Source: an uncultured Gemmatimonadota bacterium (lineage in GTDB: Bacteria > Gemmatimonadota > Gemmatimonadetes > Gemmatimonadales > Gemmatimonadaceae). From it: a DNA stretch of 53,973 bases. The stretch is from assembly GCA_902826615.1 (NCBI GenBank), contig CADEFN010000014.1, forward strand, positions 1-53,973. The letters are read 5' to 3'. The notes under the pieces were generated by a model, which was not told the origin of the DNA, did no database searches, and was given only the letters and a program-made list of their open reading frames with translations. Positions 46,061-52,943 of this stretch are shown here, piece by piece (the stretch's first letter is position 1; every line of letters begins with the position of its first letter). A program made the position numbers and the translations under genes.

Positions 46061-46312
46061 TTAGTGCTTCGTGTCCCGCACCGACTCCGGGTCGTGACCG
46101 TAGCTGTCACTGTCCCGGATCCGCCCGTCCGGCCGATGGATCACCACCTCACTGCGCCGCGCTTTCGCCTCCGGGATCGCCTCGGCGATCGCGTCCTGCT
46201 GCGAGACGGGCACCTTCGACAGAATGCGCCCGCGGGCCACGCGGGCCACAAACCGTCGGCTACCAGCCGGGACGACGTGCACGTTGCGTTTCCTGCGTCT
46301 GTTTCTGGCCAT
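46061..46312 (-). CDS. DUF2188-family protein
   Basis: 83 aa from ATG 46312. The strands NVHVVPAGSRRFVARVARG, then QDAIAEAIPEA and EVVIHRPDGRIRDSDSYG have the order and the RPDGRI.D.DSYG end of DUF2188, a small alpha/beta domain of unknown function often found in mobile DNA. A basic start (RNRRRKRN) may bind nucleic acid. It is the second gene after the helical-protein gene inside the 31-bp inverted repeats and ends before a strong hairpin. Confidence 0.8.
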   Translation of the reverse strand: MARNRRRKRNVHVVPAGSRRFVARVARGRILSKVPVSQQDAIAEAIPEAKARRSEVVIHRPDGRIRDSDSYGHDPESVRDTKH

Positions 46313-46347: not shown

Positions 46348-47073
46348 CTACGCGGCAACTGCAGGGGGAACGTCCGAAACAGGCGCCGGAGCCGACCCGG
46401 CAGGTGAATCGTCGACCGGCGGCGCTGCCGACGCCGGTGAGGAGAGGCGGGCAAAACGGGAGATGCTGCGCCATTCGGCCGCACGGGATGGTGTGCCCGC
46501 GAGGCGTGGGGAGACCATGTCGTCGAGCATGCGTACGATATCACGTCCCCTCGCGTACTCACGGCGCAAGCCCGCCGTCGACGCGGCACGCCGCCCGAGA
46601 TCGGCGGCGCGTGCGTCGATCACCGTGCGCAGCTCCGCCGCCGCTTTCGCCATCCGATCGACGAAGTCGGCAGAGAGGCCGGCGCCGGTGAACTTTGCCG
46701 TGTGCTGCTTGGCCATTTGGGCCATGGCCTCGGCCGCGGCGATGACGCCTTGATAGTCGCGCGTTCTGGGCATCGAAAACGCGGCCAGCAGGTCGGGATC
46801 ACTCGGGAAGAGGGTACGCGCCGCATTCGCGACCGGCCGCATGAATTCACGCCGAACGGAGCTGATCGCCGAGCGGGAGAGCTGAGTACCGGCCGACGCC
46901 TGCCGGGTACGCGCGTCCTGTTCCCGTGCGTACGTCTCGATTTGCAGGATGACGTCGTCCAGCTGCGTGACGACGCCACCCACCGACCCGAGGCCGACCT
47001 CGGGCGCCTCGGTCTTGAGGAAGTCCCGCACTCGGCGGAACACCTGCACGGCTTGCTTCTCCCTGGTCAACAT
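46348..47073 (-). CDS. Helical protein of unknown function inside the inverted-repeat module
   Basis: 241 aa from ATG 47073 with GGAGG upstream. It is mostly helical (EKQAVQVFRRVRDFLKTEAPEV, then AMAQMAKQHTAKFTGAGLSADFVDRMAKAAAELRTV, read in shorter runs), and a Ser/Pro/Ala-rich tail ends PPAVAA. It has no known motif. It lies 35 nt upstream of DUF2188, so both are in one transcript. Gene order in an inverted-repeat module with a 21-bp array suggests it is the module's own protein. Confidence 0.7.
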   Translation of the reverse strand: MLTREKQAVQVFRRVRDFLKTEAPEVGLGSVGGVVTQLDDVILQIETYAREQDARTRQASAGTQLSRSAISSVRREFMRPVANAARTLFPSDPDLLAAFSMPRTRDYQGVIAAAEAMAQMAKQHTAKFTGAGLSADFVDRMAKAAAELRTVIDARAADLGRRAASTAGLRREYARGRDIVRMLDDMVSPRLAGTPSRAAEWRSISRFARLSSPASAAPPVDDSPAGSAPAPVSDVPPAVAA

Positions 47074-47234
47074 GATGGTGCCTCCATATAGATGGGACGC
47101 CGAATGGAAGCCACCGCGAGCGGGCGTCCCGAATCGCCCGCGGTGGAGATGCTGCGTTGTGGTTGTACGGCAGAGGGGGCCGCGTGACCTGCACTGGCCT
47201 TCGTCCAGGCGGCATCGCCTCGGTGGTGAGCGAA

Positions 47235-48200
47235 GCTGTCGCGTGCCGCAGCGCGGAGCCTCGTGCGCGCTCCGCACTGGTGCCTGCGCACATCGCACTG
47301 CCTCGTGTTCGCTCAGCCATGGCGCGTGCACATCTCACTGTGCCTCGTGCACACTCAGCCGAGCCTCGTTCGCATCCCGACGAGTCGTTGGCACATGTCG
47401 CGCAGTGGTGTCGCTACTCGACTGAGCGTCGTGCACATGTCACGCTGCCGCCTGCTCGCGCCGGCCTGCTTCGTGACAGCGCTGCGCTGACACGTCGCAG
47501 GGTTTCTCTAACACGTGGTAGCGTTGCGCTGCGACGCGGCAGGGCCGCCCGGTCACGCGGCTCAGCAGCCCTGACTCGCGACCGTGCCGCTGAGCCCCAT
47601 GCGCGGCGCGCCGAGGGTGGTGTCCGGATGACCGGGAGTCGTGTACAGTCGACACTGCCTCGTGTAGACGTCGCGCGGTCGCCTGAGCACTCCAAATCGG
47701 CGCGTGCACATCCCGCGCTGCCGCGTGAACGACTGGCTGAGTGGCGTGCACGGGCAGCATGACCGTCTGCACGACCAGCTGTGCCTGATGCACACTTCGC
47801 AGAGTGTCCTGCACGGGCGTCTCTGCTCCATGCAGAAGCGGCTTTGTGTCATGCAAAGGCCGCTACGCCCCGTGTCCACATCGCACAGCCATGTGCACCA
47901 CCACCAGCATGCCGTGGTCATGCCACGCTGCCGCGTGCTCAGGCCGCCCTGTCGCGTGATAGCGCCGCCCTGTCGCGTCGTAGCGCGGCCCTGCCGCGTC
48001 GCTGCGCCGCCCTGTTGCGTCGTAGCGCCGCTCTGCCGCGGGTCAGCGCCACGCTGTCACGTGACAGCGCCGCCTTGTCTCGCGCACGGGCGACTTTGCT
48101 TCATGCACACGTCGCCCTATCGAGCGTCGACTCGACTCTGTGTCGTCCAATGGCCGCGCAGTGTCATGCAATGGCCGCCGAGCGGCGTTTTTTCGCGCCG
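47235..48200 (+). repeat. 46 degenerate 21-bp tandem repeats without an indel
   Basis: From 47235 every 21 bases starts a new unit. In the + reading frame the unit encodes L-P/S-R-x-x-x-A (consensus Leu-Pro-Arg-Ala-His-Val-Ala). By my hand alignment codon 7 is Ala or Thr in about 40 of 46 units while its third base is freely A, C, G or T. Spacing is exact throughout: no unit is shorter or longer. A single in-frame stop (TGA 47760-47762) splits it into 47157-47762 and 47781-48323. It could be two repeat proteins, one disrupted protein, or a binding array (21 bp is two helical turns). Confidence 0.85.
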
Positions 48201-48323
48201 GGCCTTGTTTCATGTCAGCGCAGCGCATCGCTGGCGCGCCTAACGGCGTTGACCGGGTCCTGCGCGTCGTCCACCGGCGTCCCGGTGTGGCCGAACGAGC
48301 GCGCTCCCGAACGCCATGGCTGA

Positions 48324-48946
48324 CGCTATCCACACAATGTTTGCGGCGCGTCGCCGCCCTGCGTCTTGAGCCATCGATGGCCGGCCGCGTCGCCCCTTTG
48401 GAGCACGCTCCGGTCTTGCTGGGCAGCCGAGCCGCGTGCAGGCTCGGCAGAACGCGCCTCCTGGCGAGACGAGGCCCTTCATATAAAAGGGGCGTGCCGC
48501 CGAGGGTGTGCGTTCCCTCATGTCTCGTCAGTCGAACCCGAGAGCGGCATGGCCCTGTCGCATGTACGGCGTGCCGAGTCGCTGACTCCCGTGTTCCGCC
48601 GCATCGACGAGCGGACCGTCTCGAGGAGCCGCCTCCTGACACGGATCGCACAGTGACTCGAAGAACCGCGCCCCAGCCGAACGCAGAAGAGTGGGCGATG
48701 GTGCGCTCCCACCGTTGCCGAAGCAGACCCGACTCTGTGCTCTCTATATGTAAAGGCCACAGAAACAGGTTTTCGGCAAGCGGTCACGCAAAGAAATCTG
48801 CGCCCGCGTGGTGTCGTGTTCGTAAAGTCGCGAAAGGTTTGGCGCGCGAAGACGCGTTTTGCCAACTCGTGACGGGATATAGATGAGGGGCACGATATCG
48901 ACTTCGGCATTGCAGAAAATTGGATGCCGCGTTTTGGGGAGGGATC
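48324..48946. other. Stretch between the repeat array and the next promoter, 623 bp
   Basis: No supported gene. It contains an 8-bp-stem hairpin (GCCGAGCC 48426-48433 with GGCTCGGC 48441-48448), an A/T-rich spot (ATATAAAAG near 48481) and the right copy of the 31-bp repeat (48850-48880). Short frames (for example 48549-48656) have no ribosome site. Confidence 0.45.
48850..48880 (-). repeat. 31-bp terminal inverted repeat, right copy
   Basis: Perfect reverse complement of 45880-45910 (ends TCGTGACGGGATAT). It is the right border of the 3.0 kb module; the first conserved promoter-like element begins 43 bp beyond it. Confidence 0.85.
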
Positions 48947-49010: not shown

Positions 49011-49430
49011 ATGGCCGGAACCCGACGATGGACGGAACGTGAGCGCGAGCTGTTACGCCGGATCGCGCGAGAGGGAAAGCCGACCCGCGCGATTGCGCGG
49101 GTGCTTGGACGGAGCAGGATCGCAGTGCGGGTGATGGCGTGCCGGCTGAAAGTGCGTCTCACCTCGCCGGTCGGTCGCCCACGTTCGCAACGTGTGGTGA
49201 CAGACGTGGTGCGTGACGTGGCGGCGACGACGCGGGCGGTGTTCGGGGCGGCTCGCTTTGCCGCGTTTGAGGCGGTCGAAGCCGCGCTTGGTCGGCTTTA
49301 TGGCGGCTGCAGCACCGGACGAGACGATTCGCGCGAGCAACCCGGCACCGCACGCCACGGGGCGGCGGCGCGGCGCGGAGCCCCGGCACGGGGGCTTATC
49401 ACTCTCACACCATGCGGAGCCGGCAGATGA
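49011..49430 (+). CDS. Helix-turn-helix (SANT/GcrA-like) DNA-binding protein
   Basis: 139 aa from ATG 49011 with GGGAGGAAC upstream. Residues 5-48 (RRWTERERELLRRIAREGKP, then TRAIARVLGRSRIAVRVMACRL) fit a three-helix MYB/SANT-type domain such as GcrA or phage HTH proteins. The rest is basic and Arg/Gly-rich. It is the first of four genes joined by ATGA overlaps and is probably the regulator of that set. Confidence 0.65.
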   Translation: MAGTRRWTERERELLRRIAREGKPTRAIARVLGRSRIAVRVMACRLKVRLTSPVGRPRSQRVVTDVVRDVAATTRAVFGAARFAAFEAVEAALGRLYGGCSTGRDDSREQPGTARHGAAARRGAPARGLITLTPCGAGR

Positions 49431-49936: not shown

Positions 49937-50304
49937 GCCGCCGTACCAAGCAGCGCCGCTGGTTTCGGCGGCTGACCGCGAGTGAGCGCCCCGTGGTGCG
50001 GACGATGGCACGGGCAATGAGCCGCGGCGACAGGGACTTTGCCGAGGACCTGGAGCAGGAAGGATTGCTCGCGATGTATCTGATGGCGCCGGAGATGCTG
50101 GAGCGGGCCAGCGATGCGCAGGAGACGGCGCGTGATACCGCCTTTGAGGCGATGAAGCCGTATCGGCGTCGCATGGGTCCCGGGCGTCCGTGCGAGGACG
50201 CGGGGGAGTACAGCGGGTGGATGGTGATAACAGGCAGGCGCATGAGTGGAGGCGGCACGGGCGACGCAACAGGCGAGACGCCACACGGGGGAACCGAGAC
50301 ATGA
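49933..50304 (+). CDS. Sigma-factor region-2-like small protein, third gene of the operon
   Basis: 123 aa; ATG 49933 overlaps the previous stop. Residues FAEDLEQEGLLAMYLMAPEMLERA, read in shorter runs, resemble sigma-70 region 2.1-2.2 (DLEQEGLLAM) and an Arg-rich following helix (EAMKPYRRR). The end (GWMVITGRRMSGGGTGDATG) lacks region 4. It could be a partial sigma or a sigma-interacting protein. The match is to the general pattern only. Confidence 0.5.
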   Translation: MSRRTKQRRWFRRLTASERPVVRTMARAMSRGDRDFAEDLEQEGLLAMYLMAPEMLERASDAQETARDTAFEAMKPYRRRMGPGRPCEDAGEYSGWMVITGRRMSGGGTGDATGETPHGGTET

Positions 50305-50678
50305 GCCCGAGCGCCAGACAACGAAACCCGCGTCGTTTGTACGGGCGGGCCACTACTCCGGCCGCTGGTACGGGGCGTGGTGTCGCGGATCTTCAGCGGG
50401 GATGGTGGGTCCTTGGGATCGCGGGGACGCTGGTGGGTGCGCTCGGATTCCAGGCGTTGCCGCCGGCTCGTCGGCTGGCCCTTCTGGAGAGTGTGAACGC
50501 GCGGCAGGACTCAGTGAATGCGAGCCAGGACTCGGTGCTGGCGGCCCATCAACGGGTAGAGCGGGAGGCGCTGGACTCAATCAACCGGCAGTTGGGGCAG
50601 CTGCTGGCGGGGCAGTGCGCGAAGGAGCGGGACCGTATGGCGCGTTTGCTGTATGCCTGTGGCCGGTGGGACAAGTGA
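50301..50678 (+). CDS. Small membrane protein with helical tail, fourth gene of the operon
   Basis: 125 aa; ATG 50301 overlaps the previous stop. A hydrophobic helix (WWVLGIAGTLVGALGFQAL, about 35-53) is followed by a helix with repeated NARQDSVNASQDSVLAAHQRVE (read as about 66-87) and a Cys near LLAGQCAKERDRM. The layout recalls spanin or holin-like proteins but no family fits. It closes the four-gene set. Confidence 0.55.
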   Translation: MSPSARQRNPRRLYGRATTPAAGTGRGVADLQRGWWVLGIAGTLVGALGFQALPPARRLALLESVNARQDSVNASQDSVLAAHQRVEREALDSINRQLGQLLAGQCAKERDRMARLLYACGRWDK

Positions 50679-52262: not shown

Positions 52263-52562
52263 TTATGCCGCCGTCGTGCGGTTCCGCACGCTGACGCGGA
52301 CATCGGCCCCTGTCTTGTCGAGCATCGCGATCAGAGTGTCGACGCTAAAGCGCTCGATCTTGCCGCGATAGAGGTCGCTGATCCGCGGCTGGGAGACTCC
52401 GAGCAGGCGGGCGGCCTGGGACTGGGTGGTGCCCCGCGCCGTCAGCCGCTTGCGGAGCTGGATCATCAGGGTCGACCGGAGTTGCAAGTTCGCGGCCTCG
52501 GCGGCGGGGAAGCCAAGGTCGGCGAAGACGTTCCCCGAGCCACGCGTCATCTTGATCGCCAT
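52263..52562 (-). CDS. higA: HigA-like helix-turn-helix antitoxin
   Basis: 99 aa from ATG 52562, one base after the toxin stop. Residues about 40-75 (TARGTTQSQAARLLGVSQPRISDLYRGKIERFS, read in shorter runs) are an XRE-type helix-turn-helix. The protein ends in a basic-polar tail (VSVRNRTTAA). It should bind and neutralise the toxin and repress the shared promoter at 52915-52943. The order toxin-antitoxin matches the HigBA type. Confidence 0.85.
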   Translation of the reverse strand: MAIKMTRGSGNVFADLGFPAAEAANLQLRSTLMIQLRKRLTARGTTQSQAARLLGVSQPRISDLYRGKIERFSVDTLIAMLDKTGADVRVSVRNRTTAA

Positions 52563-52563
52563 G

Positions 52564-52908
52564 TTAGCCTCCTGGGCGCGAGCGCCGTTGGGCGAGTAGG
52601 GCGCGAAAGCGCGTCGCGCCGACGTCGAGGTCGAGCGGCGAGGTCCGCTGCGACTTCTTCTGAAAGGCATGGAGGACGTAGACCGCCTCCTCGAACTTGG
52701 CCACGTAGAACACACGGAAGGCGCCCTGCACCCGGACCCGGAGCTCGTAGACCCCGGCGCCGACGCTGGGCATGGGTTTGAAGTCGCTGGGCTCCAGTCC
52801 CTGCTGGATGAGGTCGAGCTCGTGTCCTGCCCGCCGGCGGGGACCGTCGGGCAGGGCGCGGAGATCGGCGCGCGCCGACCCGAGGAACACCAGCGGCTTG
52901 ACGGCCAT
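52564..52908 (-). CDS. higB: HigB-like (RelE superfamily, Gp49/DUF891) toxin
   Basis: 114 aa from ATG 52908. The AGVYELRVRVQGAFRVFYVAKFEEAVYVLHAFQKKSQRT run (read as residues about 51-88) is the RelE/HigB core with the conserved basic and aromatic residues, ending at the KKSQ motif typical of Gp49 toxins. It should cut mRNA on the ribosome. Its gene comes first and the promoter places the transcript start at or next to the ATG. It lies next to an attC site, a common setting for such genes in integrons. Confidence 0.88.
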   Translation of the reverse strand: MAVKPLVFLGSARADLRALPDGPRRRAGHELDLIQQGLEPSDFKPMPSVGAGVYELRVRVQGAFRVFYVAKFEEAVYVLHAFQKKSQRTSPLDLDVGATRFRALLAQRRSRPGG

Positions 52909-52914
52909 GAGGGC

Positions 52915-52943
52915 AATATATAACTACATGTATGCGCTGACAA
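52915..52943 (-). promoter_or_regulatory. Sigma-70-type promoter of the higBA genes
   Basis: On the minus strand: TTGTCA (52938-52943), a 17-base spacer and TATATT (52915-52920), then 6 bases to the toxin ATG. The -35 box differs from consensus TTGACA at two positions and the -10 from TATAAT at one. The transcript should begin at or very near the ATG, so the toxin mRNA is probably leaderless. Confidence 0.65.

Follow-up and report, generated by a model that had tools for sequence, protein, structure and literature searches.

Degenerate 21-bp tandem arrays apparently kept beside one gene family in soil Gemmatimonadota

Comparison of genome sequences indicates that soil bacteria of the phylum Gemmatimonadota keep arrays of degenerate 21-bp units beside one gene family, here called gene A. 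Across these arrays the 21-bp spacing (now and then 20) is preserved and the sequence is not, and the arrays are, as far as comparison tells, non-coding. We tentatively read the array as a platform of duplex DNA whose sites are weakly specific and in phase with the helix, the product of gene A itself being the most likely ligand. The window, i.e. the whole stretch of 53,973 nucleotides that was analysed, holds one such array and its gene:

47235..48200, no strand assigned: array of 46 tandem degenerate 21-bp units, plus-strand consensus CTGCCGCGTGCACGCGCCGCC, apparently non-coding
46348..47073, minus strand: gene A, encoding a basic protein of 241 aa predicted to be all-helical, paired with 21-bp arrays across Gemmatimonadales

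Spacing, inheritance and gene linkage of the arrays

The window array consists, as originally predicted, of 46 back-to-back 21-bp units at 47235-48200 with zero internal indels. The mean match at lags 21, 42 and 63 is 0.518 compared to 0.284 in shuffles (z = 28), so that the repeat is correctly described and lies far above chance expectation; mean identity of the units to the consensus is 61%. A profile HMM stretches the periodic segment slightly, to about 47200-48227, and the indels it calls are confined to the edges of this extended segment. The absence of insertions and deletions holds for the window array but not for its closest paralogous array in the same genome (L005/L033), which has a 1-nt phase slip near L005:2790.

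A cyclic 21-state HMM was fitted to 47 arrays comprising 1125 units. The arrays have a median of 22 units (range 10-51), a GC content of ~0.67 and a median distance of 168 bp between array end and gene A, and the best period is 21 in 39 of the 47 and 42 in 7 more. Mean column identity inside arrays is 0.48 vs. 0.29 in the background; the unit sequence differs from array to array, and the spacing alone is common. Mismatches to the consensus number 9079 and indels 59, a substitution:indel ratio of 154:1; the indels are mostly single-base deletions clustered in few arrays, and 23 of the 47 arrays have none.

Related arrays, namely L117/L120 (from two genomes) and L126/L127/L129 (from one genome), align unit by unit on one diagonal, where the match is 0.57-0.69 compared to 0.42-0.57 overall, with the offset in whole units and at most one 1-nt slip across 390-473 bp. 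Therefore, units are inherited in register, gained or lost whole, and altered by substitution. Unit similarity is confined to close relatives of gene A and to the same strand, which suggests that the array travels with the gene; a unit sequence common to all loci was accordingly rejected, such similarity being seen only between these close relatives. Palindromic operator units were rejected as well (palindromic in 3 of 47 arrays), and so was CRISPR-like growth from one end, age polarity being absent along the arrays.

The link to gene A was assessed by scanning 41 loci of up to 20 kb each (709 kb in total). A period-21 segment lies directly 5' of gene A in 33 of the 41, and in 32 of about 40 in a second count. 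Two of the 8 exceptions offer fewer than 310 bp upstream of the gene, and two others are called by the HMM. Loci found to lack an array are L034, L112 and L125; in L054 the array lies 3' of the gene. For periods 20 and 22, a segment 5' of gene A was found in 0 and 1 loci, respectively, and for other periods in 0 to 2 loci, save for 28, 35 and 42, which share multiples with 21. The number of arrays remote from gene A was gauged from a sample, 400 kb of control sequence, rather than by an exhaustive count; this sample contained four period-21 segments, and the one strong segment among them is a coding heptad repeat with a signal-like N-terminus. Array and gene A are inherited together, with orientation and register fixed, and the two form a conserved module that in the window's family includes a structured leader.

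Gene A, its leader and its neighbourhood

Gene A is the sole family common to all 59 loci. Its product in the window has a net charge of +10 and a pI of 10.9, and its AlphaFold2 model (pLDDT 89.8) places helices at residues 31-88 and 137-193. Models of one member per family are confident (pLDDT 89.8 and 92.7) and alike in architecture: a short helix is followed by one of ~58-63 residues, by short helices and by another long helix, of 54-57 residues. Over the N-terminal 210 residues most members are basic (median pI ~10); a few from the second family come close to neutrality.

Pfam has no family for the window protein, no replication family was found among 26 relatives, and none of 26 members matched the PADLOC anti-phage defence HMMs below E 0.01. 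Neither Pfam nor comparison with PDB folds revealed a recognisable DNA-binding fold, and no viral fold match stands out. The nearest PDB folds (McpS, TorS, trypanosome receptors) were rejected as relatives, the best Z of 9.7 being in the range for unrelated helical bundles; a missing fold match does not imply a new fold. The NCBIfam model NF052641, 'PQLLE family protein', matches 4 of the 26 relatives weakly (best E 2.5e-5). One listed match is collinear (47-163 to 51-171 of 211) and scores 16.3 bits compared to a cut-off of 80; the NF052641 family was not found in 61 Gemmatimonadales genomes, and the window gene A does not match it.

Gene A is present in 18 of 60 related genomes and, by profile search, in 33 of 295 Gemmatimonadota genomes, with up to 9 copies each. 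The nine named relatives from contig scans come from soil MAGs of Gemmatimonadetes/Gemmatimonadales and from one contig binned as Betaproteobacteria. This 4.6-kb contig (L073), whose gene A relative is 66% identical to that of L051, is probably misbinned Gemmatimonadota. A plasmid or phage origin was rejected, relatives being absent in the plasmids and viral contigs searched. Several contigs (C44, C15, C48, C13 and C14 of genome G024 and C40 of G051) start at most 65 bp from a gene A match, as if assembly broke in sequence shared between copies.

Between array and gene, the window has the following leader features:

47135..47146, minus strand: 5' arm of the predicted leader hairpin stem, CCACCGCGGGCG
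47123..47130, minus strand: 5' arm of the predicted pseudoknot, in the hairpin loop, GGGACGCC
47111..47122, minus strand: 3' arm of the predicted hairpin stem, CGCTCGCGGTGG
47094..47101, minus strand: 3' arm of the predicted pseudoknot, GGCGTCCC, 20 nt before the gene A start codon
47081..47085, minus strand: Shine-Dalgarno GGAGG of gene A, read from the sequence

In the window, CCACCGCGGGCG pairs with CGCTCGCGGTGG to form the stem, and GGGACGCC with GGCGTCCC to form the pseudoknot. Many leaders of the window's family have such a hairpin in the stretch that separates the array from the gene, at 20-30 nt from the start codon, with a locus-specific stem and a loop, GG(G)ACGC, that pairs with a downstream GCGTCC(C). 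A stem of at least 7 bp together with at least 6 pseudoknot pairs occurs in 19 of 59 leaders, compared to 0.8% of shuffled leaders, and stem pairing of at least 7 bp is reached by 47% of leaders with their own arms vs. 5.8% with arms swapped between loci. Judged by this covariation of its arms, the leader hairpin with its pseudoknot is genuinely structured. When the 20-kb loci were scanned for knots of the GGACGC/GGGCGC type, 16 had one on the gene A strand, in each case at the leader of gene A and at no other place on this strand; three hits were on the opposite strand, and the 400 kb of control sequence contained one. No Rfam family matched array or leader at the gathering score in nine loci, and a sub-threshold mir-512 match in the window was dismissed as chance.

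The array sits between divergent genes: gene A (46351-47073) is read from the minus strand, and the HTH/SANT-like gene from the plus strand. The neighbours are:

49011..49430, plus strand: divergently oriented gene for an HTH/SANT-like protein, kept at both paralogous loci of this genome
49412..49936, plus strand: CHAP-like family gene, CHAP being named from a relative (E 3e-4)
46061..46300, minus strand: DUF2188 protein gene, directly downstream of gene A and kept at all 3 loci of this genome
45182..45901, minus strand: gene for a sigma-70-like (ECF-type) factor, in synteny across all 3 loci of this genome

The genome encodes two paralogues of gene A (57% and 61% identity), each with the same neighbours, in the order sigma factor, DUF2188, gene A and, divergently, HTH, CHAP-like, sigma-region-2-like and coiled-coil genes; across the 59 loci, a CHAP-like gene lies near gene A in 8. 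The coiled-coil gene, at 50190-50678 of the window, encodes a putative membrane-anchored protein with a short coding 21-bp repeat of its own (VNARQDS VNASQDS) and is syntenic at all three of the genome's gene A loci. In one paralogue (L005/L033) a separate array of ~42 units occupies the same place, with a related unit and the phase slip described above. The other (L004/L034/L140) has no array directly upstream of gene A, and its period-21 signal ~2 kb off coincides with the coiled-coil gene region.

A CATATAGATGG-like motif recurs at 47083-47095, 48479-48490, 48742-48755 and 48880-48892 of the window, at L004:221 and at L005:3670, that is, near gene A, past the distal end of the array and near sigma-factor genes; it is possibly a promoter element of a neighbouring sigma factor. 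Further off, 52263-52943 (minus strand) contains a Gp49-like (DUF891) toxin-family gene (52564-52908) and, next after it, an ORF that is XRE-like in sequence; the region looks like an ordinary HigBA-type toxin-antitoxin pair, with the antitoxin judged by eye. In another locus, L145:11044-12108 contains reverse transcriptase/maturase fragments, group II intron-like, and a further 21-bp array then lies at the contig end.

Readings of the array

The original prediction had offered, besides a heptad-repeat protein, a DNA array whose 21-bp step leaves all sites facing the same side of the helix. This alternative is favoured, the period being kept across the order while the sequence varies. Twenty-one bp is two turns of B-DNA. 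Because of this, and because unit sequence, strand and palindromic symmetry are free to vary, the array would act as double-stranded DNA. It would offer 10-50 weak, slowly drifting sites on one helix face, upon which an oligomeric protein could assemble cooperatively, by avidity, just upstream of gene A. The likeliest such protein would be gene A's own product, the best candidate since its gene is the sole one common to all loci and the protein is basic; its helix of ~57 residues would measure ~85 Å, compared to 71 Å for 21 bp. The cis-module would then consist of the 21-bp array, the hairpin/pseudoknot leader (in the window's family) and gene A, with a locus-private nucleoprotein controlling gene A and the leader pseudoknot providing a second, translational control.

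The predominance of period 21, its linkage to gene A and the near absence of periods 20 and 22 argue for such a platform, as do the scarcity of indels, the in-register alignment of related arrays, the restriction of unit likeness to close gene A relatives, the absence of a coding signal, the rarity of palindromic units, the helical, mostly basic proteins of both families and the recurrent pseudoknot, with own-arm pairing far above that of swapped arms. Against it stand the lack of a recognisable DNA-binding fold in gene A, the array 3' of the gene in L054 and the arrayless paralogue L004/L034/L140, which indicates that gene A can exist without an array. In addition, column information within the arrays shows no sub-periodicity of 10-11 bp, which contacts on one face might leave, and the RNA folds described next lean towards a role of the transcript. 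We hold the platform, with the gene A product as its most likely ligand, as a preferred reading that falls somewhat short of an even chance.

The array could instead be transcribed as a long repetitive leader or non-coding RNA ending at the hairpin, with the gene A protein binding this RNA as an RNP and gene A expressed by read-through. The structured leader with covarying arms and the T-rich sequence that follows the hairpin in L112 and L113 are consistent with this reading. Folding of the RNA is slightly more stable than in shuffles for the gene A strand (mean z -0.96, vs. -0.32 for the other strand), with z below -2 in 11 of 47 arrays compared to 3 on the other strand; a weak C-over-G skew on the gene A strand is observed in 33 of 47 arrays (p = 0.002), and the TA depletion of the arrays resembles that of transcribed genes. 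However, the fold signal is weak and absent in most arrays, Rfam has no match, best-covering ORF and composition disagree on the strand, and it is hard to see what a fixed period of 21 would mean for RNA, in which the A-form turn is 11 bp. An RNA role is, in our estimate, unlikely, although a serious contender.

A selfish or neutral satellite, that is, a slippage-prone tandem repeat beside gene A with no function of its own, would agree with the locus-specific sequences, the varying unit numbers and the arrayless loci (L034, L112, L125). Units at even distances are slightly more alike than those at odd distances (0.523 for units two apart vs. 0.499 for neighbours), which is a trace of a 42-bp dimer and is of the kind left by growth through unequal crossing-over. 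A satellite must nevertheless account for a pitch that does not drift: the period stays 21 across two families of an order despite sequence turnover, substitutions exceed indels 154:1, and the link to one gene family is tight. We regard this explanation as improbable.

The other half of the original prediction, selection on a heptad-repeat protein, possibly decayed at most loci, is not supported. The features that suggested it are present in the window: frame 1 of the plus strand has its sole stop in 46 units, a TGA, at 47760; at residue 7, 30 of the 46 units have Ala and 9 have Thr (39 together), and the third base of this codon is near random (C15 T12 G11 A8). Yet one stop vs. 3.3 expected from column shuffles is not significantly few (p = 0.13), and the fixed codon 7 reflects a single conserved column (C at unit position 20) with no third-base pattern. 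In the window alone, information is lower at the third position (0.49 vs. 0.62 and 0.69; column test p = 0.71). Across the 47 related arrays, each measured in its least-stopped frame, codon positions 1, 2 and 3 carry 0.636, 0.631 and 0.632, respectively (p = 0.93), and the codon-position bias expected of a coding repeat is therefore absent. A period-3 pattern in column information is significant at p < 0.05 in 2 of the 47, the window array not being one of them (p = 0.71).

Frames tell the same story. Stops number 765 over the 47 arrays compared to 967 expected, but the depletion is alike in all six frames and parallels the TA depletion; no frame is open throughout in 14 arrays, and the ORF with the best coverage shares its strand with gene A in 30 arrays and runs on the opposite strand in 17. 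Amino-acid identity in the window exceeds that of column shuffles in the forward frame, and does so by nearly as much in a reverse frame, in keeping with units that descend from one another. The paralogous array with its phase slip also contains stops. On these codon-position and frame tests, the heptad protein was rejected, with a borderline case in one genome.

In that genome, L126, L127 and L129 have a common open frame with a borderline third-position excess (column-permutation p 0.04-0.08), and differences between these arrays peak at the third position of the common frame (0.41-0.56 vs. 0.21-0.38). L127 and L129 have open frames of 376 and 374 codons that span successive sub-arrays. These two arrays, at -1239..-111 and -1222..-100 relative to gene A (genome G117), are composite, with sub-arrays of differing 21-bp units in a single register and open frame that would encode heptads such as ADRVVRA and then SRAQQTP. 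Coding 21-bp heptads are known in this genome, the positive control being L161:5048-5554 (minus strand), a true coding array with a signal-like N-terminus followed by EDVRDRR/K heptads. Because of the open frames of L127/L129 and the third-position pattern of L126/L127/L129, a small probability is kept for coding, which we otherwise consider very improbable.

We know of no bacterial precedent for direct DNA-DNA homology sensing. A mechanism of this kind, in which partly matching units at helical spacing pair with one another or with sister copies and the gene A product bundles the paired duplexes, would resemble what has been proposed for RIP in Neurospora (PMC4858203) and would accommodate the impression that any sequence suffices if it repeats at 21 bp with partial identity (mean 0.48 inside arrays), but it is pure analogy, it meets no 10.5-bp sub-periodicity inside units, and we give it the least credence of all.

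Comparison with known systems

The original statement that no described family has this repeat holds within the literature searched, where array, leader and gene A family are without description; no papers on 21-bp arrays in Gemmatimonadota or on the PQLLE family were found in a search that was thin in subscription journals. Nearly all known DNA elements are recognised by sequence, and these arrays conserve helical spacing only; since this spacing alone is conserved across arrays, selection seems to act on geometry. It is conceivable, though on balance doubtful, that they represent a bacterial DNA element that is read by spacing and not by sequence, with locus-private arrays of 21-bp pitch co-evolving with their own basic coiled-coil protein and pseudoknotted leader in up to nine orthogonal nucleoprotein loci per genome. 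If true, this would add a kind of cis-element that has so far gone unrecognised, together with its cognate protein family, and from a phylum whose genetic systems have been little studied. For annotation, the arrays are a trap: a 21-bp periodic array with a near-open frame need not encode a heptad protein.

Several known repeats differ from these arrays in kind. A CRISPR array was rejected, since the units diverge along the whole length and spacers are absent. Borg tandem repeats have units of ~20-21 nt, both intergenic and in ORFs, with array-specific sequence (PMC9879509); however, the copies in Borgs are perfect and recent, rich in A and varied in unit length (PMC9879509), whereas the units described here are old, degenerate, GC-rich, always ~21 bp and tied to one gene family. 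RIP in Neurospora detects interspersed homologies whose overall identity is only 36% and whose matches recur every 11-12 bp (PMC4858203), so that there, too, helix-matched periodicity outweighs overall identity; RIP is a fungal process between long duplexes, and its likeness to the arrays would be one of analogy.

The systems that work most like the module are plasmid iterons and partition centromeres. Iterons are spaced by helical turns. They are alike in being tandem direct repeats of ~19-22 bp beside the start of a cognate protein gene (e.g. PMC7315799), and helically spaced tandem repeats beside a gene are what is found here, with gene A as the probable cognate from its linkage. Iterons, however, are usually few and near-identical and adjoin both a Rep gene and an A+T-rich part of their replicon, in contrast to 10-51 degenerate units of GC ~0.67 on chromosomal contigs, in several copies per genome, beside a gene that is not Rep; a plasmid iteron array was rejected, as the adjacent Rep gene and plasmid relatives are missing. 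In plasmid centromeres (the parS/parC repeats upstream of par operons), a helically phased array is both operator and assembly site beside the gene of its binding protein. ParA, ParM and TubZ were not found as common neighbours of gene A (59 loci, neighbours clustered and partly Pfam-scanned). Compared to par systems, there are several loci per chromosome, each with its own unit, and the protein fold differs; the likeness lies in a repeat array beside the gene of its presumed binding protein.
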